Shown here one piece after another: positions 1 to 11,029 of a stretch of DNA of 11,029 bases. This DNA comes from Candidatus Woesearchaeota archaeon. Lineage in GTDB: Archaea > Nanobdellota > Nanobdellia > Woesearchaeales > UBA12501. The stretch's first letter is position 1. Each line of letters begins with the position of its first letter. The notes below the pieces were generated by a model. The model searched no databases, was not told where the DNA came from, and saw only the letters and a list, made by a program, of their open reading frames with translations. The DNA lies in NCBI GenBank assembly GCA_026394915.1, contig JAPLZS010000063.1:1-11029 (forward strand). The letters are read 5' to 3'. Made by a program: the position numbers and the translations under genes.

Positions 1-927
1 ATAAATAAGGAATCGCCAGTGCTGCCATCTTGTTATCCTTGACTTCATTATGTCTGCTTTTGAGATGAAATCATATGCCCTTGCAAGGTCAGCAGGGTCC
101 TCATATTCTTTCGGAAGATTCTCGTCAATCCAGAGAAATACCTCATCTATCTTCTCTTCTATGTTCTCGAATGCGCTGAGAGCAATCTTGACATCAGTTG
201 TCTTCAATACTTTCATCACAGCATTAAGGATAGTCTCTGTCTGCTCTCTCTGCCCTAATTCATCGATTGACTCCCTTGATATCTCTTTATCAATCCCAGC
301 TATTATCTGAAGGTCATTTATCGCAGCCCTTATGTCTCCGCCCGATCTTCTTGCAAGTGTCTTGAGGTCATCTTCCTTGAATTTGATATTCTCTTTTTTT
401 GAGATGCTGACCAGAAGATTGACTATGCAGTTATAATCCGGCTTGCTGAACTCTATCATGGCACTTTTTTTCCTGAGAATGGAGAGCTTCTTGTCAAATG
501 GATCAACTGCAGTGCAGATTATAGGGAATGCAGAATATTCAATCAGTTTTGCGAGCGCATTTATACCTCCCCTGTCCTCTTTTCCGCTCAGGCCGTCAAC
601 CTCATCAATCAGTATTATCTTTCCTTTTGAAAACAAGGACATCTGCCTTGATGATGCTCCGACAACAGAATTGATCTGCTCCTCGTTCCTGAAGTCAGAT
701 GCATTGATTTCGATGATCTCAAGATCAAGCTCACGCGCAACAGCATAGACGGCAATTGTCTTTCCGCTTCCGACTGGACCATAGATTATGGCTGCTTTCT
801 TCTTCTGCTTCTTGTAATTTGATGCAAAACTGCTTATCTGCTTTATCGCCTCTTCCTGTGAGATTATCTCAGAAGTCTTTTTTGGCTGATATTTCCTTGT
901 CCAGGGAATGCTGTTATTTTCCTGCAT
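1..927 (-). CDS. rfcL: Replication factor C large subunit (clamp loader), C-terminus beyond window
   Basis: This is an AAA+ ATPase subunit of the archaeal clamp loader, which uses ATP to open the PCNA ring and place it on primed DNA at the replication fork. The frame is open from the ATG at 927 to base 1, giving 309 residues; archaeal RfcL proteins are usually about 400-500 residues, so the C-terminal part is missing. Visible motifs are Walker A GPVGSGKT (residues 50-57), Walker B ILIDEVD (105-111), the sensor-2 region SGGDIRAAINDLQ (196-208 or so) and the large-subunit signature WQHWRF (301-306). The segment CTAVDPF (138-144) sits where family members usually read TANDP, so the usual sensor-1 asparagine appears to be valine. 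The start is supported by a TATA-like element about 26 bases upstream, consistent with a leaderless mRNA. It is transcribed away from the AbrB-like gene. Family assignment is firm; nothing can be said about the downstream end. Confidence 0.95.
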   Translation of the reverse strand, partial: MQENNSIPWTRKYQPKKTSEIISQEEAIKQISSFASNYKKQKKKAAIIYGPVGSGKTIAVYAVARELDLEIIEINASDFRNEEQINSVVGASSRQMSLFSKGKIILIDEVDGLSGKEDRGGINALAKLIEYSAFPIICTAVDPFDKKLSILRKKSAMIEFSKPDYNCIVNLLVSISKKENIKFKEDDLKTLARRSGGDIRAAINDLQIIAGIDKEISRESIDELGQREQTETILNAVMKVLKTTDVKIALSAFENIEEKIDEVFLWIDENLPKEYEDPADLARAYDFISKADIMKSRITRWQHWRFLIY

Positions 928-948
928 AAGATGTAAGGTGTTGTTTTG

Positions 949-959
949 TATTTAAATTT
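949..959 (-). promoter_or_regulatory. TATA box of rfcL
   Basis: Read on the minus strand, AAATTTAAATA lies about 22-32 bases upstream of the rfcL ATG at 927. That is the distance expected for an archaeal TATA box feeding a leaderless or very short-leader transcript. No Shine-Dalgarno sequence precedes the ATG, which fits. Confidence 0.55.
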
Positions 960-977
960 CTTTGTTTTAAGGGTATT

Positions 978-994
978 TTGCGAAAAAAACGCAA
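978..994. repeat. Short inverted repeat between divergent promoters
   Basis: TTGCG, seven A, then CGCAA: a 5-bp perfect inverted repeat around an A7 core. It lies between the minus-strand TATA box of rfcL and the plus-strand TATA-like element at 996-1004. It could be an operator shared by the divergent genes or a weak hairpin. Five-base arms can arise by chance in AT-rich spacer DNA. Confidence 0.3.
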
Positions 995-995
995 C

Positions 996-1004
996 ATTTA
1001 AATA
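996..1004 (+). promoter_or_regulatory. Upstream TATA-like element, plus strand
   Basis: ATTTAAATA on the plus strand lies about 27-35 bases upstream of an ATG at 1031. That ATG opens only a 12-codon frame (1031-1069) whose stop overlaps the next TATA box. It may be an alternative distal promoter for the AbrB-like gene, giving a leader of about 65 bases. The short frame is probably not a gene. Confidence 0.3.
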
Positions 1005-1058
1005 CTATTATATAAAATAATCAATAGAATATGCTTAAAGATATTAAAAATAATATTA

Positions 1059-1071
1059 TTTATATATAAAA
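1059..1071 (+). promoter_or_regulatory. TATA box of the AbrB-like gene
   Basis: TTTATATATAAAA lies 22-34 bases upstream of the ATG at 1093, the position expected for an archaeal TATA box with transcription beginning at or just before the start codon. The absence of a GGAG-type ribosome site before 1093 agrees with a leaderless message. Confidence 0.55.
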
Positions 1072-1092
1072 CAGCATAGAAAAAGCTTTAAG

Positions 1093-1272
1093 ATGGTAAA
1101 GATACAAAGATTACCAAACGGGCAGCTTGTGATAACTATTCCGAAAAGGCTTGCAGAACTCAAGGCATGGGACAAAGGCACAAGGCTCATGTTCAAGGAT
1201 CATTCACCTGAATCATTCATTCTTGCTGTCGACAAGAAAGAGAAGGAGAAATCGGCAAAGTCAGCTAAGTAA
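1093..1272 (+). CDS. Small AbrB/SpoVT/MazE-like DNA-binding protein
   Basis: A 59-residue protein. Residues 3-33 or so follow the swapped-hairpin AbrB pattern: a first strand, then NGQLVITIPKRLAE, then a KGTRLMF strand, comparable to the family core in which a GQ(V/I)TIPK stretch precedes a short helix and a 'GD.(V/I)' strand. After residue 48 it becomes a Lys/Glu/Ser tail (DKKEKEKSAKSAK) without predicted fold. Such proteins bind DNA as dimers and serve as transition-state regulators or as antitoxins that repress their own promoter. Here no toxin of recognisable type follows; the only downstream frame is a doubtful 42-codon ORF nine bases after the stop. The start is chosen from the TATA box 22-34 bases upstream. 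The fold is likely; the regulated target is unknown. Confidence 0.7.
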   Translation: MVKIQRLPNGQLVITIPKRLAELKAWDKGTRLMFKDHSPESFILAVDKKEKEKSAKSAK

Positions 1273-1281
1273 AAGAAGAAA

Positions 1282-1410
1282 ATGGATAAATTAACGCCGG
1301 TAAAGATTGGAAGCATTGCAAACATATCAATATCAAAGATAGCATTACAATCATTATTTGAAGGCCTCTGCAGCAGGTTTAAGTACCCCCACAAATACTT
1401 ATCAGAATAA
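1282..1410 (+). CDS. Doubtful 42-residue ORF running into the palindromic element
   Basis: An ATG frame begins nine bases after the AbrB-like stop codon and ends at a TAA (1408-1410) inside palindromic element copy 1. The first 27 codons (starting MDKLTPVKIGSIANIS) lie outside the element, the rest inside it. The only upstream ribosome signal is a weak AAGAAG. It could be the remnant of a gene cut by arrival of the element, a short operon partner, or chance. I recognise no family. Confidence 0.2.
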   Translation: MDKLTPVKIGSIANISISKIALQSLFEGLCSRFKYPHKYLSE

Positions 1411-1429
1411 TTCTGCTGCTGCAGAGGCT
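1363..1429 (+). repeat. Palindromic three-way-junction element, copy 1 (intergenic)
   Basis: The ends form an inverted repeat: 1364-1376 (GCCTCTGCAGCAG) is the exact reverse complement of 1416-1428, extended by a G-U pair 1363/1429. Inside are two hairpins: TAAGTA 1380-1385 with TACTTA 1396-1401 around a C-rich loop, and CAGAA 1403-1407 with TTCTG 1411-1415 around TAA, the second stacking directly on the outer stem. The core 1365-1427 matches 60 of 63 bases of the copy at 2864-2926. A T-rich stretch follows (1429-1451), so this copy could also end transcription of the AbrB-like gene. Outside the stem the flanks of the two copies differ, as expected for a discrete transposable or dispersed element. 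I see no target-site duplication. Confidence 0.8.
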
Positions 1430-1521
1430 ATTCATTTATCTTTATTTGATTTCAGGGATCCATGCCATTTGCCACTAATTTATTCCTTACTTACCTGATA
1501 GGAATTTGATAGACTAAATTT

Positions 1522-1536
1522 ACCTACTAAGTAGGT
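1522..1536. promoter_or_regulatory. Palindromic operator-like site abutting a TATA box
   Basis: ACCTACT-A-AGTAGGT is a perfect 7-bp inverted repeat around one base. It touches the TATA stretch starting at 1536, in the position of the archaeal B-recognition element, so a dimeric protein bound here would interfere with or recruit TFB. Its AGTAGG arm resembles the ATAGG core of the neighbouring direct repeats. Confidence 0.5.
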
Positions 1537-1547
1537 TTTATATATAA
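1536..1547 (+). promoter_or_regulatory. Distal TATA box of the HTH/surface-protein operon
   Basis: TTTTATATATAA directly follows the palindrome at 1522-1536. Transcription would start near 1570, giving a leader of about 70 bases before the HTH gene. A 14-codon ATG frame (1579-1623) lies in that leader but has no other support. Confidence 0.4.
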
Positions 1548-1610
1548 TTTATACTTATCTAATAGGAAACTAAGATAGATGTTCTTTTATTATATAGATT
1601 ACATAGAAAA

Positions 1611-1619
1611 CTTTATATA
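1611..1619 (+). promoter_or_regulatory. Proximal TATA box of the HTH/surface-protein operon
   Basis: CTTTATATA lies 24-32 bases upstream of the TTG at 1643. This is the leaderless spacing and is the main reason for accepting TTG as the start codon of the HTH gene. Confidence 0.5.
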
Positions 1620-1642
1620 CTGATACTTACACAATAGGATAA

Positions 1643-2224
1643 TTGGTAAAAATAGCGATTGAGAGCCAAGGGAAAAAAGGTAGTGATAGATATGATAGTC
1701 ATTGCTCCAATTCTCAGGTTAATCCAGATCTCGTTAAAAAAATAAAAGGATTCATAAGAAAGAACAATGTTTCTGAAGAGGATGCAAAAGATATATTCAA
1801 TGATAGGATTGTTGATATTGTATTGAGCGGCAAGGATTCTGTGCCAATAGAGATCTTCTCGAACAGGGAGCTTGGCGCATTTGAATCAATAGTGAAATAT
1901 CTCAAGGAGAATCTCTGCGAGAGCTTCTCTGAGATCTCGTCTGCAACAGAAAGGAGCGTAAAGACTGTGTGGACAGCATACAGCAAATCAAGGATAAAGA
2001 GGCCCTCTGCATATTCAATAAAGAAAAGTTCTGCTGAGATCCCATTGAGCGTGTTCAGGAACAGGTCTCTTGGCGTGCAGGAAAATCTTGTGATATACCT
2101 GAAGGATAGTTCTGGATTTAGCTATCATGACATCGCATCTGCGCTGAAAAGAGATGACAGGACAATCTGGACAGCATATCACAGGGCAAAGAAGAAATCA
2201 GGAGAATCAGGAGCGATAGCATGA
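1643..2224 (+). CDS. Tandem helix-turn-helix protein, two sigma-region-4-like domains
   Basis: A 193-residue predicted cytoplasmic DNA-binding protein. Two homologous domains of about 52 residues lie at 68-119 and 133-185. Each runs from an Ile-Pro-(I/L) start through (S/R)NR.LG and an amphipathic helix (V.YLK) to a helix-turn-helix reading roughly (F/Y)..I(S/A)SA..R..(K/R)T(V/I)WTAY. The second is more canonical (YHDIASALKRDDRTIWTAY). The pattern recalls sigma-70 region 4 and related HTH domains of DPANN archaea. Residues 1-65 are charged and have no domain I know. An in-frame TAA at 1640-1642 precedes the TTG, and the frame contains no ATG, so TTG at 1643 is the first available start; the TATA box at 1611-1619 supports it. 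The stop TGA overlaps the ATG of the surface-protein gene, so the two are translationally coupled. It may control its own operon through the upstream repeats. Binding-domain call is good; target is inference. Confidence 0.75.
   Translation: MVKIAIESQGKKGSDRYDSHCSNSQVNPDLVKKIKGFIRKNNVSEEDAKDIFNDRIVDIVLSGKDSVPIEIFSNRELGAFESIVKYLKENLCESFSEISSATERSVKTVWTAYSKSRIKRPSAYSIKKSSAEIPLSVFRNRSLGVQENLVIYLKDSSGFSYHDIASALKRDDRTIWTAYHRAKKKSGESGAIA
2200..2213 (+). promoter_or_regulatory. Duplicated Shine-Dalgarno sequence before the surface-protein start
   Basis: AGGAG occurs twice (2200-2204 and 2209-2213) within a 9-base tandem repeat TCAGGAGAA/TCAGGAGCG. The second ends seven bases before the ATG at 2221, ideal spacing. 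This fits the archaeal habit of using ribosome sites for internal operon genes while the first gene is leaderless, and it fixes the start at 2221. Confidence 0.7.
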
Positions 2225-4473
2225 GTGATGAGAGAAAAAGGATGGAGAAGATAAAGAGATTAGAAGAAGGTATAATGAAGTGCAGGGAATATAAGAAGAA
2301 GATAGAGAGATTCTCATCAAGACTATCAAAAGATTACAGGAAAGGAAGGATGGATCGTGCAGAATATGAAGAGAACATAAAGAAGCATCTGCAGGGGATC
2401 TATCCAGAACAATGGGCAGATTATTATGAGACCAAGAGCAGGGGATTCAGTGATGAGATAAAGAAGATTGCATCTTCTGGAGCAGTTATATACAATAAGA
2501 ATACAAAGACAGTCGCGATATGCGGATTCTTATTGTTCATGCTTGTCGGAATGCTTGTCGGAAACTATGCAAAGATAACAGGCTTTGCATCTTTTGAGAG
2601 CGCAGATGTTTTCACAGGCAAGGAAACTTACAATATAGGAGAGATGGTGCACATCTTCGTTGTTCCAGGAGATGCAGAGCGCACTGTCGAGGTCTATGAC
2701 TCAGAAAATAATATGATTGCAGTCTCAGAGGACTTCCCTGCTGAAAAGCCGGGAAAATATACTATAAAGGCATCAGTGAAGATTGGAGAAGGGACAAAGG
2801 AGGTGTCTGCAACATTCTCTGTGGCAGGAAACAAAGATGAAGAGACAATCAATGATCAAGAGACCTCTGCAGCAGGTTTAAGTACCCCCACAAATGCTTA
2901 CCAGAATAATTCTGCTGCTGCAGGGGTCCAGATTGCCGGAAAGGTGAATGATACCATCAAAGACGGCAATGATGATGTTGTCGGCAGGAAAATAGAGGAT
3001 GAAAAGGATTATGAGACGATATTCACTCTTGTCGGCAGACTGAATGGCAGTTTTGTGATTGAATTCCACCACAACTCGACAATTGTGCAGCCAGTCTGGG
3101 TTGAGGCAGAAGGGGGCATGCAGTATAATCTTTCCACTCTTGCAGCAGATCCAAATGAGACTGTTGTCCTGACAATACCCCTGGACAGCCAGCAGAGCCT
3201 GCCTAAGTTCAGGCTGCATGTAGGGCTTGAATCAGAGGTGTTTGAGTTTGACATAGAGGGGGCTTCTGGAGCAGGAACAGTTCTTGGCAAGGAAATAGAT
3301 TTCAGCAAAGCAGACATGGTCGAAGAGTCTGCTCTTGATGAGAACAATAATTCGATAGCTGTCACAAAGATAGAGAAAGACGGATTGAGCATAAATATAG
3401 GGGGTGCAGGAAAAGACGAGATAAAGAATGTCAATTTCAGCAAGGGCATACTGCATGTTGATCCCATACCAATAAAGGATGCAGAGATAAGCATGCCTCA
3501 TAAGCTGATAACTGGGGTTATGGTTGCCCCGAAACTTTATATCAAAGAGGATAATGAGACAAAGTTCAGGATTGCAGAGCCTTACACAAAAGACAGCAAG
3601 AGATTCAATGAGATAAAAGTGACTCCATCTTATTATGAATTCAATGTCGAGCATTTCACAGACTATTATGTGGAATCAGGAGGAGATTACGAAACACTGA
3701 CAGACTGCCTCCTTGCAATAAATGACACAGAAGATACATGTGTAATAGCCCAGGAAGGTTTATGGGACATAGATGATAGTTACATGTTCCATCTGGCTTC
3801 AAATGCGATAACGATCGCCTCGCCAAATGTCATATTAAACTGCGGCGGCTCTACAATAAATGGAGATGGAACTGGCGCGGGAATAAGATACGATGAGGAG
3901 GGAGGAAACATAACAATAGAGCATTGCAACGTAGAGGGATTTGATACTAACTTTGTTATTTATGGAGGTGGAGATGAAAACAGCAACATAGTGATACTTA
4001 ACTGCACAAGCGGAAGCGCAAATTATGAAGATTCTTTTGATTATGCAAACTTTACAATAAAGCAGTTCAACCAGACAGATGGTATGGGAATATCCCTATC
4101 GCAGGACGCATCTTACAGCGGATTGTTGGAAGACGTGCTGATGACAGGCTGCTCAGCAGCAGATGGAGAATACTTCTCATGCATGTATATTGAGGGCGCA
4201 AGCAACTACATATTCAGGAGGATAAACCTGACAACAATATCAACACCTCCTGACAGCCTGCAGTCTGGAGTGATATTCGCAGCAGGATCAAGCGACAACA
4301 TATTCGAGGACAGCTACATCAATGCAAACAGGATAACTGCATTAAACATCACATCAGACAGCAATTACAGGAACATAATCAGGAACACGACAATAGAAGA
4401 CAGCAAAGTGGGATTGAACATACAGACTGCTTCTAATGATGTAATAAACAACACGATAAGGGCAACACGATAA
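2221..4473 (+). CDS. Anchored N-terminal part of surface protein: membrane helix, Ig-like region, beta-helix
   Basis: A 750-residue product. Residues 1-95 are highly charged and probably a helical, coiled-coil-prone cytoplasmic segment. A single hydrophobic helix at about 97-117 (AICGFLLFMLVGMLVG) with Lys before it predicts N-inside, C-outside topology. Residues 125-203 look Ig/beta-sandwich-like (TGKETYNIGE, then KPGKYTIKASV). Residues 215-237 are encoded by palindromic element copy 2. From about 485 a NosD-type right-handed beta-helix begins (VILNCGGSTINGDG, NIVILNC), rich in Asn and N-x-S/T sequons, suggesting N-glycosylation outside the cell. The beta-helix is cut off by TAA 4471-4473, which exists only because of the 14-base duplication; its last residues RATR are out of register. 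It follows the HTH gene with an ATGA overlap and a strong ribosome site. Ligand or role (adhesion, surface enzyme) cannot be stated. Confidence 0.85.
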   Translation: MSDERKRMEKIKRLEEGIMKCREYKKKIERFSSRLSKDYRKGRMDRAEYEENIKKHLQGIYPEQWADYYETKSRGFSDEIKKIASSGAVIYNKNTKTVAICGFLLFMLVGMLVGNYAKITGFASFESADVFTGKETYNIGEMVHIFVVPGDAERTVEVYDSENNMIAVSEDFPAEKPGKYTIKASVKIGEGTKEVSATFSVAGNKDEETINDQETSAAGLSTPTNAYQNNSAAAGVQIAGKVNDTIKDGNDDVVGRKIEDEKDYETIFTLVGRLNGSFVIEFHHNSTIVQPVWVEAEGGMQYNLSTLAADPNETVVLTIPLDSQQSLPKFRLHVGLESEVFEFDIEGASGAGTVLGKEIDFSKADMVEESALDENNNSIAVTKIEKDGLSINIGGAGKDEIKNVNFSKGILHVDPIPIKDAEISMPHKLITGVMVAPKLYIKEDNETKFRIAEPYTKDSKRFNEIKVTPSYYEFNVEHFTDYYVESGGDYETLTDCLLAINDTEDTCVIAQEGLWDIDDSYMFHLASNAITIASPNVILNCGGSTINGDGTGAGIRYDEEGGNITIEHCNVEGFDTNFVIYGGGDENSNIVILNCTSGSANYEDSFDYANFTIKQFNQTDGMGISLSQDASYSGLLEDVLMTGCSAADGEYFSCMYIEGASNYIFRRINLTTISTPPDSLQSGVIFAAGSSDNIFEDSYINANRITALNITSDSNYRNIIRNTTIEDSKVGLNIQTASNDVINNTIRATR
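2539..2562 (+). repeat. 12-base tandem duplication inside the membrane-helix codons
   Basis: ATGCTTGTCGGA occurs twice in a row and encodes MLVG-MLVG in the transmembrane helix. Being 12 bases it keeps the frame and lengthens the helix by about one turn. It is of the same kind as the 14-base duplication downstream. Confidence 0.8.
2862..2928 (+). repeat. Palindromic three-way-junction element, copy 2 (inside a coding region)
   Basis: This copy matches 1363-1429 and keeps the same fold: outer stem 2862-2875 with 2915-2928, hairpin 2879-2884 with 2895-2900, hairpin 2902-2906 with 2910-2914. The three core differences from copy 1 are A-to-G at 2896 (still pairs, as G-U), T-to-C at 2901 (unpaired junction) and A-to-G at 2924 (still pairs, as G-U). 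Next to the core, 2863/2927 is A-U where copy 1 has G-C. It is read in frame as a Ser/Ala/Asn/Thr-rich linker of about 22 residues between the Ig-like region and the next domain. Of the three plus-strand frames, the used one is the only one open right across the element. Confidence 0.8.
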
Positions 4474-4476
4474 GGG
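4449..4476 (+). repeat. Perfect 14-base tandem duplication causing a frameshift
   Basis: CAACACGATAAGGG (4449-4462) is repeated exactly at 4463-4476; flanking bases do not extend the match. Because 14 is not a multiple of three, it moves the upstream frame onto TAA 4471-4473. With a single copy, the upstream frame reads VINNTIRDTTLQAIIYDG and runs on into the 4530-8225 frame. This is consistent with slipped-strand duplication or a contraction-expansion switch. Confidence 0.9.
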
Positions 4477-4529
4477 ACACGACACTGCAGGCGATAATAT
4501 ATGATGGCGAATCAGAAGGCGATTTAGGA

Positions 4530-7500
4530 TTGAACATAACAAACAACACAATAATAAATGCAGGCGTAATTTCTAAAGGGGGTCCTGAAGATGCTTTCAG
4601 GATAGGAGATACAACATATTCATACAATGATACTGAATTTGATACGTCAATTATGTTGCCAGGAGATATCAGCTATATTCTCACAATATCATCAAACGAT
4701 TTCAATGTAAGCAAAATAGTCACAGGAAAAAACAATTTTACACTATGCCTTTTAGACTTGAATGGGTTTAATGGACTAAATTTTGTTTATATATACATAG
4801 AGCAACCGATGCATGGGGCAGCGACTTCCTGCCAGGAAATAGCTGATTCTTTAGACAGCGCATTATATCTGAATGTCACTGATTATCTGGGCAGCAATGG
4901 AGAAGCATCAGACTATTCTGTCAATGATTCAGTTGAAGGACTTTCCATAATAAATGGAGCAGACCCTGCATATCTAAGATATGATGGAGGAATACAAGGA
5001 TATTTTCCTTTAGATATCAACACAGGAAACAACTGGGCAAACATATCAGGCAACACAATAGAGATAACAGACAGAAGGAATAATCTTTATTCAATGAACG
5101 TGACTGCTGATGAAACTTTGGCGTATGATTCTGACATCTGGCTGAACAGCTTCTACAGCTCTGGAGTGAACTATTCAAACAATGTCTATTTCTGCGCAAA
5201 TGAAGAAGGCAATTTCTATAGGGAGAATGTAGCTCCAGCAGCAGGCGACTGCGGGCAGAACAACATAACCTATCCTGCAAATGGAACTGTGCTCCATAAA
5301 GAGATAAACACAACAAGTAACATATCATGGATCCAGCAGAGCTCGCAGAACAGCCTGAATTATTCTATCTATCTTGTGAACTCGTCAGGGAGATTCTACG
5401 TGAACAGGACATCTTCACTGAGCACAATAATCAAATTCGCGTATAGAAAAGCAGATAATTACACGCTGCAGGTAGCTCCTTTTGACGGAAGATACAACGG
5501 AACAGACAGGAACATCAGCATAGATATAGAAGGCACTGGCACCAATGCTCCAACACTGACTTCTGTCCTGCTCAATGCAACATCAGCAAGCAATACAACA
5601 GATGACAACCTTACTGCAAATCCCATGGGGGTTAATGATATTGACGGCGACAATGTGGAAGTAAATTACAATTGGTACAGGGACGGAGTCTCTGAAACTG
5701 CGCTGAACATGCCATTCACCATGCCTGACAGCCTGGATATGACCTATGATTTCTCCGGCAATGGCAATGATGGGACTGTCTACAACGCTGTTTTCAACGC
5801 AGCAGGAGGATATGATGGGTTTGGAGCTTATGAGTTTGATGGCATTGACAGTTATATTGCCACAGATGATATAGATGTTGAGTATATAACAATCACTGCA
5901 TGGGTGAAAGCAGAAGATGGAACACCGGGTTATATAGTCAATAAGAATTATGATGGAGGTTATGTCCCTTATTCCTTGAGTGTCGGGGGGGACGAAGAAA
6001 CTGATGGCATGGCTTTTTATGGCGATGATGGATGGAAATCCAGCGGAATCAACACAGATATACGCGGCGATGGGAAATGGCATTTTATAGCCGGTGTTTT
6101 TGATGGCGGAACTTTAAGCTATTATGTTGATGGGGTGCTTGATTCAAGCAGCGAACCAGGTTCAGGCTTGCCGGCAAATGATGAAGATGTTAATATCGGG
6201 GCTTACCTTGATGACGACGCGTATTTCAACGGAACAATAGATGAAGTGAGGATATACGACAGAAGCCTTTCAGAAAATGAGATTGCTTTAATTTATAACA
6301 ACAGGACAAACACAACCCATCCAGATGCAATAGGTTCAGGCGAGAACTGGACAGTAAAAGCAACTCCGATTGATTCTTTTGGATTGAATGGCTCTGGATA
6401 TTTCTCAAACGGCTTGATTGTAACTTATATGGAGATGTATTTAGTCAACCAGACAAATCCGTCAGGAGAGATAATAGATGAGACAAACCCGATCCGCTCA
6501 GACCAGAACCTTACAATAAGATTTGATGTCACAAACATCGGCGGATCAATAAGCTCTGTGTGGATAATCATCTGGCAGACTGTGGCTTCTGCAGGCAACA
6601 TACTCTGGCAGGGAGTGATGAGCCTGATCGGAGGATTGTGGCAGGTTCAGGTTCCTGTGAATGCAAGCTATCCGACTTATGTCAACTACACTGTGTTCGC
6701 CAATGACACTGCAAACAGGACAACGCAGACTGAGGGGAACTTCATAACCTTCGGAAAGAACATAAGCGCATGCGGAATCCTGAACTCAGCAAACACAACA
6801 TATTATCTTACAAACAACATCACATCAGTATTGACATGCCTGAATGTCACTGCGAACAATGTGACCATAGACGGAAACGGCTACTGGATAACATACGGCA
6901 CAGCAGGAACCGCAAACACATATGGCATTGTAGTTGACAACTTCAACTTCACTGTCATCAAGAATGCAAGGATCACAGAAGGCAAATCAACAGGCTCATA
7001 CAAATCTGGGATATATTTCAACAAGTCAAGCAATGGATCCATATCCAACAGCCTGATAATCGCATCAACATCATACAGCTATGGGATCTATTTGTTCACA
7101 AGGTCCAATTTCAACACCATATTCAACAACACCATAAACTCATCAGGAAACTATGGTCATAATATCTATATATATTCTAATTCGAACAGTAATAATATAG
7201 AAAAAAACACAATGTATGGAAAGAATAATCAGATCTATACTATTTATATGTTAAGCTCAACATTGAATACAGTATATAATAACACAGTAATTTTCACTTC
7301 CTCCCTTCAGTTAGGTTATGGGATAGGTTCTGATGCAAACTCAAATGTGATAAAGAACAACACGATAAATGCTTCGGGAAACTTAGGAATTTACATACAC
7401 GGAAATACAAACAATGCAACAGGAAACATAGTTACTACAACAACAGCTTATGGAATTGAAATATACCAAGGCACATTGAACAATATCTCAAACAACCAGG

Positions 7501-8225
7501 TAAACTCATCGCAGTCAAGCAGCTATGCAATTTATGGGACAACATTAGCCAATCATAACAACACAATAGGTCCTGACAACCTTGCAGAAGGAAAGCCTGT
7601 TAACTATACTTTCAATGCATCAAATCTTGTGATCAATAATACTGATTACACGAATTATGGAGAGGTGATGTTCGGCTATTCAAGGAACATCACAATAATG
7701 AACTCCAACTTCAGCGATGACAGCCTCAACCTGTTCAACACAAGCATATCAAACATAAGCAACAATATGATCAATACATCAAACGGATATGGAATACATC
7801 TATTTTCATCATCCAACTACAACAACATAACCAATAATGTGATAAACACATCAGGGTCAGGTGGATATGCAATCTATCTGTCGACAAATCCAAAGGGGAA
7901 CATCATAGATGGCAATAAGATCAAGACTTCAGGTGGCAGTGCTCATTGCGTTTTTTTAACTTCAACTACAACAGATAGCATTGTAGAAAGAAACCAACTG
8001 ATATCAGCAAGCAGCGGTTATGGAATGTCTATATCTGGAAGTTCAGTTAGAAATTTGATAACAAACAATTCAATTACAGGCACAACAGGCGTTGGAATCT
8101 ATCTATCTTCATCGCATAATGCATTTGTAGATAATGACATCACAACGACGACTGCTTTTGGATTGGATCTAGAGAATGCCATGGTCAACATCACAATGGA
8201 TAAATTGAGGGTAACAACAACATGA
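4530..8225 (+). CDS. Middle part of surface protein: beta-helix, FN3-like, LamG, Ig-like, beta-helix
   Basis: The frame can be read from the duplication at 4449-4476; the first possible start is TTG 4530, with no ribosome site, so this is best seen as the continuation of the 750-residue frame rather than an independent gene. Order: end of the first beta-helix; a Cys-pair unit (FCANEEGNFY ... GDCGQ) joined to an FN3-like unit with SNISWIQQSSQNS (about 5139-5545); a PKD/FN3-like start (NYNWYRDG); a LamG/concanavalin-fold domain at about 5736-6300 (FSGNGNDGTV, YEFDG, ITAWVKAEDG, GKWHFIAGVFDGG, IDEVRIYDRSLSENE); an Ig-like unit at 6430-6760 with SISSVWIIIWQ and WQVQVPVN; then a long NosD-type beta-helix from about 6770 to the end (NVTIDGNG, many NNTI/SNNTI turns). 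LamG domains commonly bind glycans. The product has no signal peptide or membrane helix. It ends at in-frame TGA 8223-8225. Confidence 0.75.
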   Translation: MNITNNTIINAGVISKGGPEDAFRIGDTTYSYNDTEFDTSIMLPGDISYILTISSNDFNVSKIVTGKNNFTLCLLDLNGFNGLNFVYIYIEQPMHGAATSCQEIADSLDSALYLNVTDYLGSNGEASDYSVNDSVEGLSIINGADPAYLRYDGGIQGYFPLDINTGNNWANISGNTIEITDRRNNLYSMNVTADETLAYDSDIWLNSFYSSGVNYSNNVYFCANEEGNFYRENVAPAAGDCGQNNITYPANGTVLHKEINTTSNISWIQQSSQNSLNYSIYLVNSSGRFYVNRTSSLSTIIKFAYRKADNYTLQVAPFDGRYNGTDRNISIDIEGTGTNAPTLTSVLLNATSASNTTDDNLTANPMGVNDIDGDNVEVNYNWYRDGVSETALNMPFTMPDSLDMTYDFSGNGNDGTVYNAVFNAAGGYDGFGAYEFDGIDSYIATDDIDVEYITITAWVKAEDGTPGYIVNKNYDGGYVPYSLSVGGDEETDGMAFYGDDGWKSSGINTDIRGDGKWHFIAGVFDGGTLSYYVDGVLDSSSEPGSGLPANDEDVNIGAYLDDDAYFNGTIDEVRIYDRSLSENEIALIYNNRTNTTHPDAIGSGENWTVKATPIDSFGLNGSGYFSNGLIVTYMEMYLVNQTNPSGEIIDETNPIRSDQNLTIRFDVTNIGGSISSVWIIIWQTVASAGNILWQGVMSLIGGLWQVQVPVNASYPTYVNYTVFANDTANRTTQTEGNFITFGKNISACGILNSANTTYYLTNNITSVLTCLNVTANNVTIDGNGYWITYGTAGTANTYGIVVDNFNFTVIKNARITEGKSTGSYKSGIYFNKSSNGSISNSLIIASTSYSYGIYLFTRSNFNTIFNNTINSSGNYGHNIYIYSNSNSNNIEKNTMYGKNNQIYTIYMLSSTLNTVYNNTVIFTSSLQLGYGIGSDANSNVIKNNTINASGNLGIYIHGNTNNATGNIVTTTTAYGIEIYQGTLNNISNNQVNSSQSSSYAIYGTTLANHNNTIGPDNLAEGKPVNYTFNASNLVINNTDYTNYGEVMFGYSRNITIMNSNFSDDSLNLFNTSISNISNNMINTSNGYGIHLFSSSNYNNITNNVINTSGSGGYAIYLSTNPKGNIIDGNKIKTSGGSAHCVFLTSTTTDSIVERNQLISASSGYGMSISGSSVRNLITNNSITGTTGVGIYLSSSHNAFVDNDITTTTAFGLDLENAMVNITMDKLRVTTT
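5139..5523 (+). repeat. Long direct repeat, copy 1 (Cys-pair plus FN3-like unit)
   Basis: This stretch is closely matched at 10617-11004, about 5.48 kb away in the same frame, with only small indels. The match is strongest around ISWIQQSSQNS and in the last 60 bases (QVAPFDGRYNGTDRNIS), where it is near-identical at DNA level. It encodes a repeated extracellular module with two conserved cysteines. Confidence 0.8.
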
Positions 8226-8240
8226 GGTGCTGCTTTGATG
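8224..8240 (+). promoter_or_regulatory. Possible re-initiation site after the internal stop
   Basis: GAGGTG (8224-8229), a match to the core complement of archaeal 16S rRNA, overlaps the TGA at 8223-8225 and stands eight bases before ATG 8238, which is in the downstream frame. Ribosomes ending at the TGA could restart here. The resulting protein would lack any export signal, which argues against a selected function. A six-base match can occur by chance. Confidence 0.35.
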
Positions 8241-11029
8241 TTGGTTGACAGCTTGACTAATCTCACAGTCAACAACAGTGTATTGAATAGTTCTACAGGG
8301 TTTAGCTTTAGGTTAAATGCAGGCACAGGATGGGGAATATGGAATTTTACAAATGTGACATTCAACAGGACTACATGGCCAGCAGGAGCGACCGGAACAC
8401 TGAATGTCAAATGGTATCTTGATGCATATGCAAACTATTCAAACAGCTCTCCAGCAGTGGGCGTGCATATATCTGCATGGGATAACGTGACTCCGACAAC
8501 CCCGATATTTGATGCTGTCACAGATGGAAGTGGGGTCATCCCCCAGCAGGTGATTATGGGATACAAGCAGAATGGCTCAACTGCAATAAGCAATATAACT
8601 TATTATTCAAATTACACATTCAATGCCTCTGTCAATCTTTACACAAACCTCAGCCAGACACAAAACATGAGCACAAACAGGTTCCTGTATTTCTTCTTCA
8701 ACAATACCCCACCTACCAATGTCTCGCTTGTAAATCCGTCGAACGGGAATGCGACCCTATCCAACAGGACTCCGTTCTTCAACTGGACAGCTGCAACAGA
8801 TTTTGATGGAGACAACATAACATACACAATAAACATAACGCAGCAGACATGCCCTGATGTGCTTGCGGCAGGATTGACAGGAACAAATTATACGCCGGCA
8901 TCTGATCTCTGCATTGACAGCCTGTTCAACTGGACAGTGACTGCCTATGATGGCAAGGAAAACAGCGCCCCCTCTGCGAAGTGGAACTTCACAATAGCAT
9001 CAACTATCTCCCTTCTGTTCATAAACCAGACAACCCCGTCAGGAGAGATGATCAATGAGACAAATCCGATATTCGCAAACAAGAACCTCACAATAAGGGT
9101 GAATGTGACTAATGTCGGAGCTTCAATCAGCTCAGTGTGGATAATAATCTGGCAGATTGTGGCTTCTGCATTAAACAACAACTACGACCAGAACACGCTC
9201 TCAGGACAATCTGAAGGCAGCCTGGATGAATGGAGAATGCAGGGAAGATGGCTGAATCATACAGCGTGGGATGGGGTCAGTTTTCCATTAATAGCAGGGC
9301 TGGATAATTCATATTTCACAACTGGATCTGGTGATTTTCCTGCTTCTCCTGCTGTCGCAAACGGATATGTATATATAGGAAGCGGTGATAATCAGGTTTA
9401 CCAGCTCAATGCTTCAAACATCTCACAGCAAATAGCCAATTGCACAGTCAATTTAACATATTCAAATCATGATCTTGCTGTCGCAAACGGATATGTGTAT
9501 ATAGGAAGCTATAATGGTTCGGTTTACCAGCTCAATGCCTCAAACATCTCAAAGCCGAAAATAGCCAGTTTCAAAACGGCTTATAATAGTAGTTCTGAAG
9601 GGATTGCTGTCGCAAACGGATATGCATATATAATAAGTAGTAATTATCTTTACCAGCGCAATGCTTCAAACATCTCAAAGCAGATATACACTTTCGCAAA
9701 TCCAGAAGGCGATCTTGAAGCTTCTCCTGCTGTCGCAAACGGATATGTGTATGCAGTAAGCGTTGGTGGTAGTTTTTACCAGCTCAATGCTTCAAACATC
9801 TCAAAGCAAATAGCCAATTTCACAGTTGTTGATGGTACAGATTCTGCTGTCGCAAACGGATATGTGTATGTAGGAAGCAGTGATAATCATGTTTACAAGC
9901 TCAATGCTTATAATATCTCACAGCAAATAGCCAATTTCACAATAGGAAGTTCGGCGAGTTCTTCTCCTGCTGTCGCAAACGGATATATATACATAGGAGG
10001 CTTTGATGGTAAGGTTTACCAGTTCAACGCTTCTAGTAACGCCGATACTATATTCTGGCAGGGGCTGCTGAGCCTGATAGGAGGGTTGTGGCAGGTTCAG
10101 GTTCCTGTCAATGTCAGCTATCCGACTTATGTCAACTATACTGTGTTTGCAAACAACAGCGTGAACAGGATAATGCAGATGCAGGGCAATTTCACAACAA
10201 CGTTCTGCAAGGAATGCTTTATCAATTCCTCTGGCGGCGATTTCACAAAACTTGCTGATTGCATGGGCTATATCAACAACACCAATTATTCCTGCGTCCT
10301 GAATGAGGCAGACAAGGCTTATGACATGCTGAACAATGTGTCATACAATATCATAAGAGAAGGACTTTTCTCTGTTATAAACATAACAAACACCAACATA
10401 ACATTGGACTGCAACAATTCCATCATACAGGGGATGAATGCAGGAGTCGGCGTGTCTGTTGAAGCGGAAAATTCAACTGTCAGGAACTGCAGTTTTAGGA
10501 ACTTCAATTATGGGATTGCTGTCTCAGGCAATTTCAGCAACATAACAGGAAACAGCATCTGGTACTCTGCAATATATGACCTGAACCTGACAGGCAGATC
10601 TTCATCGACACACATATGGCTGAACAGCTTTTACAGCAAAGGAGTTGATGACAAAGGCAGCAATAATGCATTCTGCGCAGCAGATAAAGGAAACTTCTAT
10701 GAAGAGAGCCTGACTCCTGCTTTAGGCGACTGCGGGCAGGACAACATAACATATCCTGCGAACGGAACTGTATTCTCGAAAGAGGTGAACACAACAACAA
10801 ACATATCATGGATCCAGCAGAGCTCGCAGAACAGCCTAAGTTATTCTGTATACCTTGTCAACTCATCCGGAAGATTCTATGTGAACAGCACATCTTCACT
10901 GAGCACGATAATCAATTTCTCGCAGACAATGAGCGGAAGTTATACGCTGCAGGTCGCTCCTTTTGACGGAAGATACAATGGAACAGACAGGAACATCAGC
11001 ATAAACATAAGCCAGATACTGCTTGCCTT
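8238..11029 (+). CDS. Distal part of surface protein: FN3-like, Ig-like with inserted propeller, third beta-helix (open at window end)
   Basis: The frame continues without a stop from just after TGA 8223-8225 to base 11029; ATG 8238 is the first start. Order: the end of the second beta-helix (LTVNNSVLNSS); a beta-sandwich-like region with PIFDAVTDGSG (to about 8700); an FN3-like unit (NVSLVNPSNG, FFNWTAATDFDGDN) to about 9000; an Ig-like unit homologous to 6430-6760 but split by a six-blade PQQ-like propeller at about 9171-10043; a third beta-helix opening with SSGGDFTKLADC and NITLDCNNSIIQG (10215-10600); then a second Cys-pair/FN3-like unit (to 11010). N-x-S/T sequons are dense. There is no signal peptide or membrane helix in this part, so it makes sense only as the distal end of the protein anchored at 2221. 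The carboxyl end lies outside the window. Confidence 0.7.
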   Translation, partial: MLVDSLTNLTVNNSVLNSSTGFSFRLNAGTGWGIWNFTNVTFNRTTWPAGATGTLNVKWYLDAYANYSNSSPAVGVHISAWDNVTPTTPIFDAVTDGSGVIPQQVIMGYKQNGSTAISNITYYSNYTFNASVNLYTNLSQTQNMSTNRFLYFFFNNTPPTNVSLVNPSNGNATLSNRTPFFNWTAATDFDGDNITYTINITQQTCPDVLAAGLTGTNYTPASDLCIDSLFNWTVTAYDGKENSAPSAKWNFTIASTISLLFINQTTPSGEMINETNPIFANKNLTIRVNVTNVGASISSVWIIIWQIVASALNNNYDQNTLSGQSEGSLDEWRMQGRWLNHTAWDGVSFPLIAGLDNSYFTTGSGDFPASPAVANGYVYIGSGDNQVYQLNASNISQQIANCTVNLTYSNHDLAVANGYVYIGSYNGSVYQLNASNISKPKIASFKTAYNSSSEGIAVANGYAYIISSNYLYQRNASNISKQIYTFANPEGDLEASPAVANGYVYAVSVGGSFYQLNASNISKQIANFTVVDGTDSAVANGYVYVGSSDNHVYKLNAYNISQQIANFTIGSSASSSPAVANGYIYIGGFDGKVYQFNASSNADTIFWQGLLSLIGGLWQVQVPVNVSYPTYVNYTVFANNSVNRIMQMQGNFTTTFCKECFINSSGGDFTKLADCMGYINNTNYSCVLNEADKAYDMLNNVSYNIIREGLFSVINITNTNITLDCNNSIIQGMNAGVGVSVEAENSTVRNCSFRNFNYGIAVSGNFSNITGNSIWYSAIYDLNLTGRSSSTHIWLNSFYSKGVDDKGSNNAFCAADKGNFYEESLTPALGDCGQDNITYPANGTVFSKEVNTTTNISWIQQSSQNSLSYSVYLVNSSGRFYVNSTSSLSTIINFSQTMSGSYTLQVAPFDGRYNGTDRNISINISQILLA
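9171..10043 (+). other. PQQ-like beta-propeller cassette inserted in an Ig-like domain
   Basis: The left half of the host domain (SISSVWIIIWQIVASA) ends at 9170 and the right half (FWQGLLSLIGGLWQVQVPVN) resumes at about 10044; in the uninterrupted paralogue at 6430-6760 the two halves are contiguous. The insert of about 291 codons begins with a W-x-M-x-G-x-x-L-x-H-T motif (DEWRMQGRWLNHT), a common lead-in to PQQ-like propellers, and then carries six blades. Confidence 0.75.
9351..10029 (+). repeat. Six tandem propeller-blade repeats
   Basis: The core AVANGYVYIGS ... VYQLNASNIS recurs with GCTGTCGCAAACGG beginning at 9351, 9477, 9606, 9729, 9846 and 9969, i.e. every 117-129 bases (about 41 residues). 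The conserved strands are nearly identical at DNA level while the turns between them differ, suggesting recent amplification or homogenisation. Third blade is the most diverged (YAYIISSNYLYQRN). Confidence 0.85.
10617..11004 (+). repeat. Long direct repeat, copy 2 (Cys-pair plus FN3-like unit)
   Basis: This is the counterpart of 5139-5523. It encodes HIWLNSFYSKGV, then FCAADKGNFY ... GDCGQ and ISWIQQSSQNS, ending in the shared DGRYNGTDRNIS. It is a possible substrate for recombination that would remove about 5.5 kb in frame. Confidence 0.8.

Follow-up and report, generated by a model that had tools for sequence, protein, structure and literature searches.

A palindromic element in the linker of a probable archaeal surface-protein gene and its second, intergenic copy

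Introduction

To our knowledge, the origin of small coding palindromic elements, such as the Rickettsia palindromic elements (RPEs), is unclear. Sections of two reports describe in-frame palindromic elements of Rickettsia and mention archaeal repeats fused to protein genes (PMC2229807, PMC10969869), and part of another describes template switching as a process that homogenises the arms of inverted repeats and alters amino acids in coding DNA (PMC8604942). Here we analyse an 11,029-nucleotide stretch of the genome of a Candidatus Woesearchaeota archaeon (GenBank assembly GCA_026394915.1, contig JAPLZS010000063.1, positions 1 to 11,029 of the forward strand; the window, throughout), which carries two copies of a 67-base palindromic element, one between genes (copy 1) and the other in the linker of a probable surface-protein gene (copy 2). 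So where did this element come from? The explanation that we favour, tentatively and with somewhat less than even confidence, is that the hairpin belongs to the gene, has been kept palindromic and was copied once, as a hairpin-sized unit.

The two copies and their counterparts in related species

The copies form a direct repeat in the same orientation, 1499 bases apart, with 62 of 66 positions identical in the ungapped core (1362-1427 versus 2861-2926), close to the 60 of 63 given in the preliminary description, and 61 of 67 over the full spans (1363-1429 versus 2862-2928). None of the mismatches, at 1364, 1397, 1402, 1425, 1428 and 1429 (the last two immediately outside the core), breaks a pair, in agreement with the earlier claim that the differences are neutral for pairing. 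Past the core, the identity of the flanks drops to 20/62 and 10/63, and their gapped alignments are at shuffle level (P 0.35 and 0.15). The similarity of the two copies stops at the stem ends; the unit common to both sites is the palindrome itself. Both plus strands fold as previously proposed, into a 14-bp outer stem with inner hairpins of 6 and 5 bp, at -30.8 kcal/mol (z -5.8) for copy 1 and -29.6 kcal/mol (z -4.7) for copy 2; for neither copy did any of 200 shuffles fold as well. What the preliminary description had not recorded is that copy 2 lies in frame within a coding linker. By eye, the product of the open reading frame (ORF) in question carries a hydrophobic stretch close to its start; it also matches a Pfam beta-helix model, at a score under the cut-off, and is probably a surface protein.

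The window genome comprises 1.25 Mb in 225 contigs and is 76% complete; among the three genomes of the genus that were compared, two are 76-79% complete and one 91%. In the two same-genus relatives, G008 and G009, homologues of the surface protein were located by protein search (43% and 47% identity to the window, respectively, in the compared region), and in each the same linker contains an inverted repeat: GCCCCTGCAGC in G008, with perfect arms of 11 bp and a 37-nt spacer, and GGCCCCTGCAGCA in G009, with perfect arms of 13 bp and a 26-nt spacer. The spacer motif TACCCCCAC is common to both window copies, G008 and G009, and CCCCCACAAA to the window and G008; any two of the four 12-bp arm sets differ at 1-4 of 24 positions, the sets form 11, 11, 11 and 12 Watson-Crick pairs, and the linker peptide is in part conserved (TPTN, AAG). 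In this genus, we take the outer stem to be a feature of the surface-protein gene at the nucleotide level. The three-way junction, by comparison, is kept in one of the two other species: G008 has it in full, with the outer stem kept and two 5-bp inner hairpins made of other bases than those of the window, and supports it, whereas G009 has the outer stem only, with neither inner hairpin, and contradicts it.

Is a hairpin general at this linker? We considered this idea and did not adopt it. Averaged over 12 homologues, the folding profile dips near -135 to -105, in part because of the three element-bearing genes (7 of the 19 homologues, which have no anchor motif, were left out). In G283, from another family, the homologous linker contains a perfect inverted repeat of 12 bp whose sequence is unrelated (L120, 1615-1666). 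The linker is alignable throughout in P0002, a homologue from a metagenome, whose peptide permits at most 8 bp at the place of the element, with or without G-U pairs; a linker without the palindrome is thus possible.

Search for further copies

A covariance model built from copies 1 and 2 and the G008 counterpart was searched against 352 genomes of the order under strict filters, at which weak relatives may be lost. The matches were both window copies, one site in G008 (E 1.4e-12) and one in G009 (5.3e-6); the minus strand of copy 1 also scores (6.5e-4), as expected of a palindrome. The search of the genome and its relatives that had been proposed at the outset thus yielded the copies in G008 and G009, but nothing convincing beyond these and the window in the 352 genomes, which are incomplete. 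Weaker candidates were set aside: one in G396 (E 0.061), at chance level and without the TACCCCCAC motif, and, in a lax search of the family, those in G007 (E 0.16) and G006 (3.9), also without it. A DNA-similarity search of 10 genomes of the family recovered the full element only in its own genome, the match in G003 (20 bases, E 0.0098) covering a single arm. Likewise, the proposed comparison with Rfam confirmed that no known RNA family matches the element: Rfam 15 gave no match up to E 1 in the window, and a SNORD74 match in L028 is below the cut-off and away from the element. No copies were found with an exact 21-mer in species genomes and viral contigs, with a gapped pattern in viral contigs, or in phages and plasmids, sets from which records of the same or a very near genome may be left out; gapped-pattern matches in G213 and G056, among 371 genomes of the phylum (a draw without G009), have no arms by eye. 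The idea that paralogue contigs are broken at the element was not borne out either, the motif being absent from the contig ends retrieved for C10, C68 and C121. Two of the G008 contigs, C121 and C108, share a 141-base end (the ends of L054 and L055) in the Ig-like domain of a paralogue; this is a branch of the assembly graph that may reflect variation there. In the print literature, we did not find the element described, and it has no name to search by.

Origin of the intergenic copy

The order of the genes for a replication factor C (RFC)-like ATPase, a regulator and the surface protein (Table 1) is kept in G008 and in G001, which belongs to another genus of the same family. The gap between the first two of these genes measures 715 bp in the window versus 201 bp in G008, and about 374 bp separate the matched parts in G001. 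With the gene order kept, copy 1 thus sits within about 515 bp that were gained in the window lineage (or, less simply, lost in the others). This stretch also includes a 59-amino-acid (59-aa) ORF, which has no match at that locus in G008 or G001 and weak relatives on other contigs of G008, G009 and G001. Copy 1 lies between the 59-aa ORF and the regulator ORF; a 42-codon frame (1282-1410) that extends into it is at most a candidate gene.

In the scenario that we tentatively favour, the parent would be the coding copy 2, its hairpin-forming inverted repeat being native to the linker of the surface-protein gene; present in all three same-genus genomes, the repeat was presumably there in their ancestor. 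The arms would stay palindromic probably via template switching at replication, with one arm copied onto the other, and selection on the folded strand perhaps adds to their maintenance. In the window lineage, a single copying event would have placed the segment, as a unit the size of the hairpin, in a new intergenic stretch 1.5 kb upstream; the boundaries of the two copies match, and the copying route is what we infer. On this view, copy 1 would be a young palindromic repeat that derives from the gene and belongs to no dispersed family. The scenario draws on the same-site repeats with their common spacer motif in G008 and G009, the matching boundaries, the lineage-specific stretch around copy 1, the lack of convincing further copies in the 352 genomes, the whole-linker recoding described below and the linker of P0002. 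The pair 2863/2927 is A-T in copy 2 versus G-C in copy 1, G008 and G009 (codons ACC and GTC versus GCC and GCC), altering one amino acid at each end of the linker, and template switching could explain this difference without any RNA function.

Several findings weigh against this scenario. In G008 the two-hairpin junction recurs with other bases, which template switching between the outer arms does not explain. Furthermore, the polarity of the changes is mixed. At 1364 it is copy 1, rather than copy 2, that agrees with G008 and G009, and at 1397 it is again copy 1 that agrees with G008, so that today's copy 2, unchanged, cannot be its source; at 1425 the shared base is in copy 2, and both copies must therefore have changed after the duplication. 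No copying intermediate was seen. Calculated from the peptide with wider flanks, P0002 could encode a stem of up to 10 bp, or 16 bp with G-U pairs, elsewhere in the linker (applied to the window, this calculation yields 9 bp, or 14 with G-U). Finally, the sequences at hand would be compatible with either an insertion or an in-place origin of the repeat.

If the scenario holds, what would it mean? The hairpin occurs once per orthologous gene in two species, a third has an extra, hairpin-bounded copy, and a likely parent gene is identified; if the gene came before the repeat, the way in which such repeats are born would become open to testing. A bolder version, which we regard as unlikely, is that we see here a palindromic repeat at birth, that is, a hairpin that evolved in an archaeal surface-protein gene under the constraint of the three-way junction and was copied out as one folded unit, and that would show a way in which host genes give rise to coding palindromic elements. 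There is also a caution: pairing-preserving changes in a palindrome are by themselves no proof of a functional RNA, because template switching from arm to arm makes them too.

Alternative explanations

The alternative that survives best, although we consider it doubtful, is a small, mobile, low-copy coding palindromic element of the RPE kind, which the genus ancestor would have acquired in frame within the linker and which would have inserted once more between genes in the window lineage. The terminal inverted repeats of 11-14 bp, the in-frame position in the linker and the second copy bounded by the palindrome all agree with such an element. The number of copies, however, is one each in G008 and G009 and two in the window, and a target duplication is not seen by eye at either copy, which also leaves the MITE-like mobile element of the preliminary description a weak proposal. 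Moreover, no Y1_Tnp transposase was found in the element's own genome (76% complete), the control being positive in 5 of 14 genomes. The linkers of G001 and of the paralogues are too diverged for an empty site to be judged, and P0002 provides an alignable linker rather than an empty site. In short, the form of the element fits a mobile, RPE-like origin and the copy number does not.

Could the three-way junction itself be what is maintained? A functional junction, of RNA or single-strand DNA, would be a fold in the surface-protein mRNA and upstream of the regulator whose binding or processing controls the operon. We hold this to be unlikely, yet it stays alive because template switching does not account for the rebuilt inner hairpins of G008. 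In the alignment of both copies with G008, 95.5% of cells pair, versus 29-54% in slid controls, and both sides have changed in 5 of the 23 pairs, which 10 of 500 shuffles matched; further pair types are present in no unusual number (110 of 500 shuffles). When the arms were fixed and the spacer was redrawn from synonymous codons (5000 variants each), two hairpins of at least 5 bp appeared in only 0.8% of variants for copy 2 and 1.2% for G008, and in none of the 5000 for G009, whose native spacer has none either. Against a functional junction stand the absence of the inner hairpins in G009, the single copy in G008, with none upstream of its regulator, the ordinary fold energy among the same spacer variants (P 0.22, 0.47 and 0.33) and the lack of an Rfam match. 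The strands do not discriminate clearly either: copy 1 folds no less stably on its minus strand (-34.6, z -5.8) than on its plus strand, and the minus strand of copy 2 is weaker and adopts a different fold (-26.4, z -3.0). The wobble pairs had been taken to indicate RNA rather than DNA. Indeed, three non-Watson-Crick pairs (1363/1429, 2866/2924 and 2883/2896) fit plus-strand RNA alone and one, the A-C end pair of G008, fits the minus strand alone, but by this hand count the plus strand is favoured in 3 of 4 pairs, which is not significant, and the argument is not supported statistically. Paired changes can also arise, according to part of one report, by template switching between arms (PMC8604942). 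Of the small structured RNA suggested at first, what persists is a structured element carried by relatives; G009 without the junction and the non-significant strand argument speak against the rest.

The palindrome might, lastly, be largely a by-product of the Ala-rich ends of the linker peptide and of codon bias, copy 1 being an unrelated rearrangement accident. With the whole linker recoded synonymously (20000 variants each), variants seldom match the observed fold for the window (0.0002) or G009 (0.0014), and G008 is borderline (0.041); a perfect repeat as long as the native one is reached at frequencies of 0.024, 0.051 and 0.004 in the window, G008 and G009, respectively (4000 variants each). 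Identical residues do not clearly share their codons more often within the element (7/8, 5/8 and 11/16) than in the 92/173, 94/176 and 87/181 compared with it (P 0.057, 0.45 and 0.09; register uncertain). As to the base rate, 89,382 bases from 30 loci contain 10 perfect inverted repeats of at least 11 bp (spacer at most 60), three of them the element. The partly conserved peptide, the 5% of G008 variants with as long a repeat and the codon identities agree with a by-product, but it is very improbable given the rarity of the window and G009 folds, the fact that the only two 13-bp perfect repeats in those loci are both the element, and a copy 1 that lies outside the surface-protein gene and is bounded by the palindrome.

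Genomic context

The features discussed above are collected in Table 1.

Table 1. Coordinates of the element copies and adjacent genes in the window
Feature	Position	Strand	Description	Basis
Copy 1, intergenic	1363-1429	+	Outer arms 1363-1376 and 1416-1429; hairpin 1, 1380-1401; hairpin 2, 1403-1415	Fold, repeat, boundaries, covariance-model match
Copy 2, coding	2862-2928	+	Codons ~214-236 of ORF 2221-4473; outer arms 2862-2875 and 2915-2928; hairpin 1, 2879-2900; hairpin 2, 2902-2914	Fold, frame, same-site inverted repeats in G008 and G009
Probable surface protein	2221-4473	+	Copy 2 in linker	ORF, Beta_helix match under Pfam cut-off, relatives
Regulator	1643-2224	+	Sigma70_r4_2 match; directly upstream of surface-protein ORF	Order kept in G008 and G001
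59-aa ORF	1093-1272	+	Within lineage-specific stretch; AbrB-like by eye, without Pfam match	
RFC-like AAA ATPase	1-927	-	Runs past window edge; left neighbour of gained stretch	

Upstream of the regulator ORF, the motif CTTA[CT]N(2-3)ATA[AG]G occurs three times in the window (1490-1502, 1554-1566 and 1626-1638), three times in G008 (L047, 6262-6462) and twice in G001 (L048, 1603-1933), with 0-0.015 expected in shuffles; the pattern was picked after the sequence had been read. The motif may be the operator of the regulator itself. At the stop of the surface-protein ORF, a 14-base unit is present twice in tandem (4450-4477), and a long frame resumes in another phase (4530-8225); a change in length by 14 bases would shift the frame, so the arrangement might reflect slippage, phase variation or a mistake in the assembly. 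Further downstream, the ORFs 4530-8225 and 8235-11027 are in the same frame, split by a single TGA (8223-8225), and at 9343-10033 a unit of ~117-129 bp is repeated in tandem five to six times, its core being GCTGTCGCAAACGGATAT, in an ORF with beta-propeller/PQQ-type Pfam matches.

Comparison with known palindromic elements

How does the element compare with what has been described? Like the RPEs, as far as the relevant sections of two reports go, it is a hairpin palindrome that lies in frame within a protein gene and also between genes, but RPEs are 105-146 bp long and occur in many unrelated genes, whereas this element spans 52-67 bases and is confined to one orthologous gene and one intergenic site (PMC2229807, PMC10969869). 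A long stem-loop palindrome is present in the window copies, G008 and G009, and it is in frame within a protein gene in copy 2 and its counterparts in G008 and G009; many dispersed copies in unrelated genes were not found among the 352 (incomplete) genomes. The element shares with prokaryotic miniature inverted-repeat transposable elements (MITEs) a short length, terminal inverted repeats and no coding capacity of its own, and differs from them in that no target duplication was seen by eye and neither a family of copies nor a partner transposase was found, Y1_Tnp being the sole transposase family searched. The archaeal coding palindromic repeats of Methanocaldococcus jannaschii, from Suyama et al. 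in 2005, reportedly form a dispersed repeat family, of a kind that was not found for the element here. The likeness is that an open-frame palindromic repeat fused into protein genes is mentioned for archaea in a section of one report (as cited in PMC2229807). Template-switch inverted repeats are similar in being perfect inverted repeats in coding DNA, with homogenisation of the arms that leads to paired amino-acid-changing substitutions; the portion of the report that bears on them describes changes within the repeat (PMC8604942), whereas here a whole hairpin has a second copy elsewhere.

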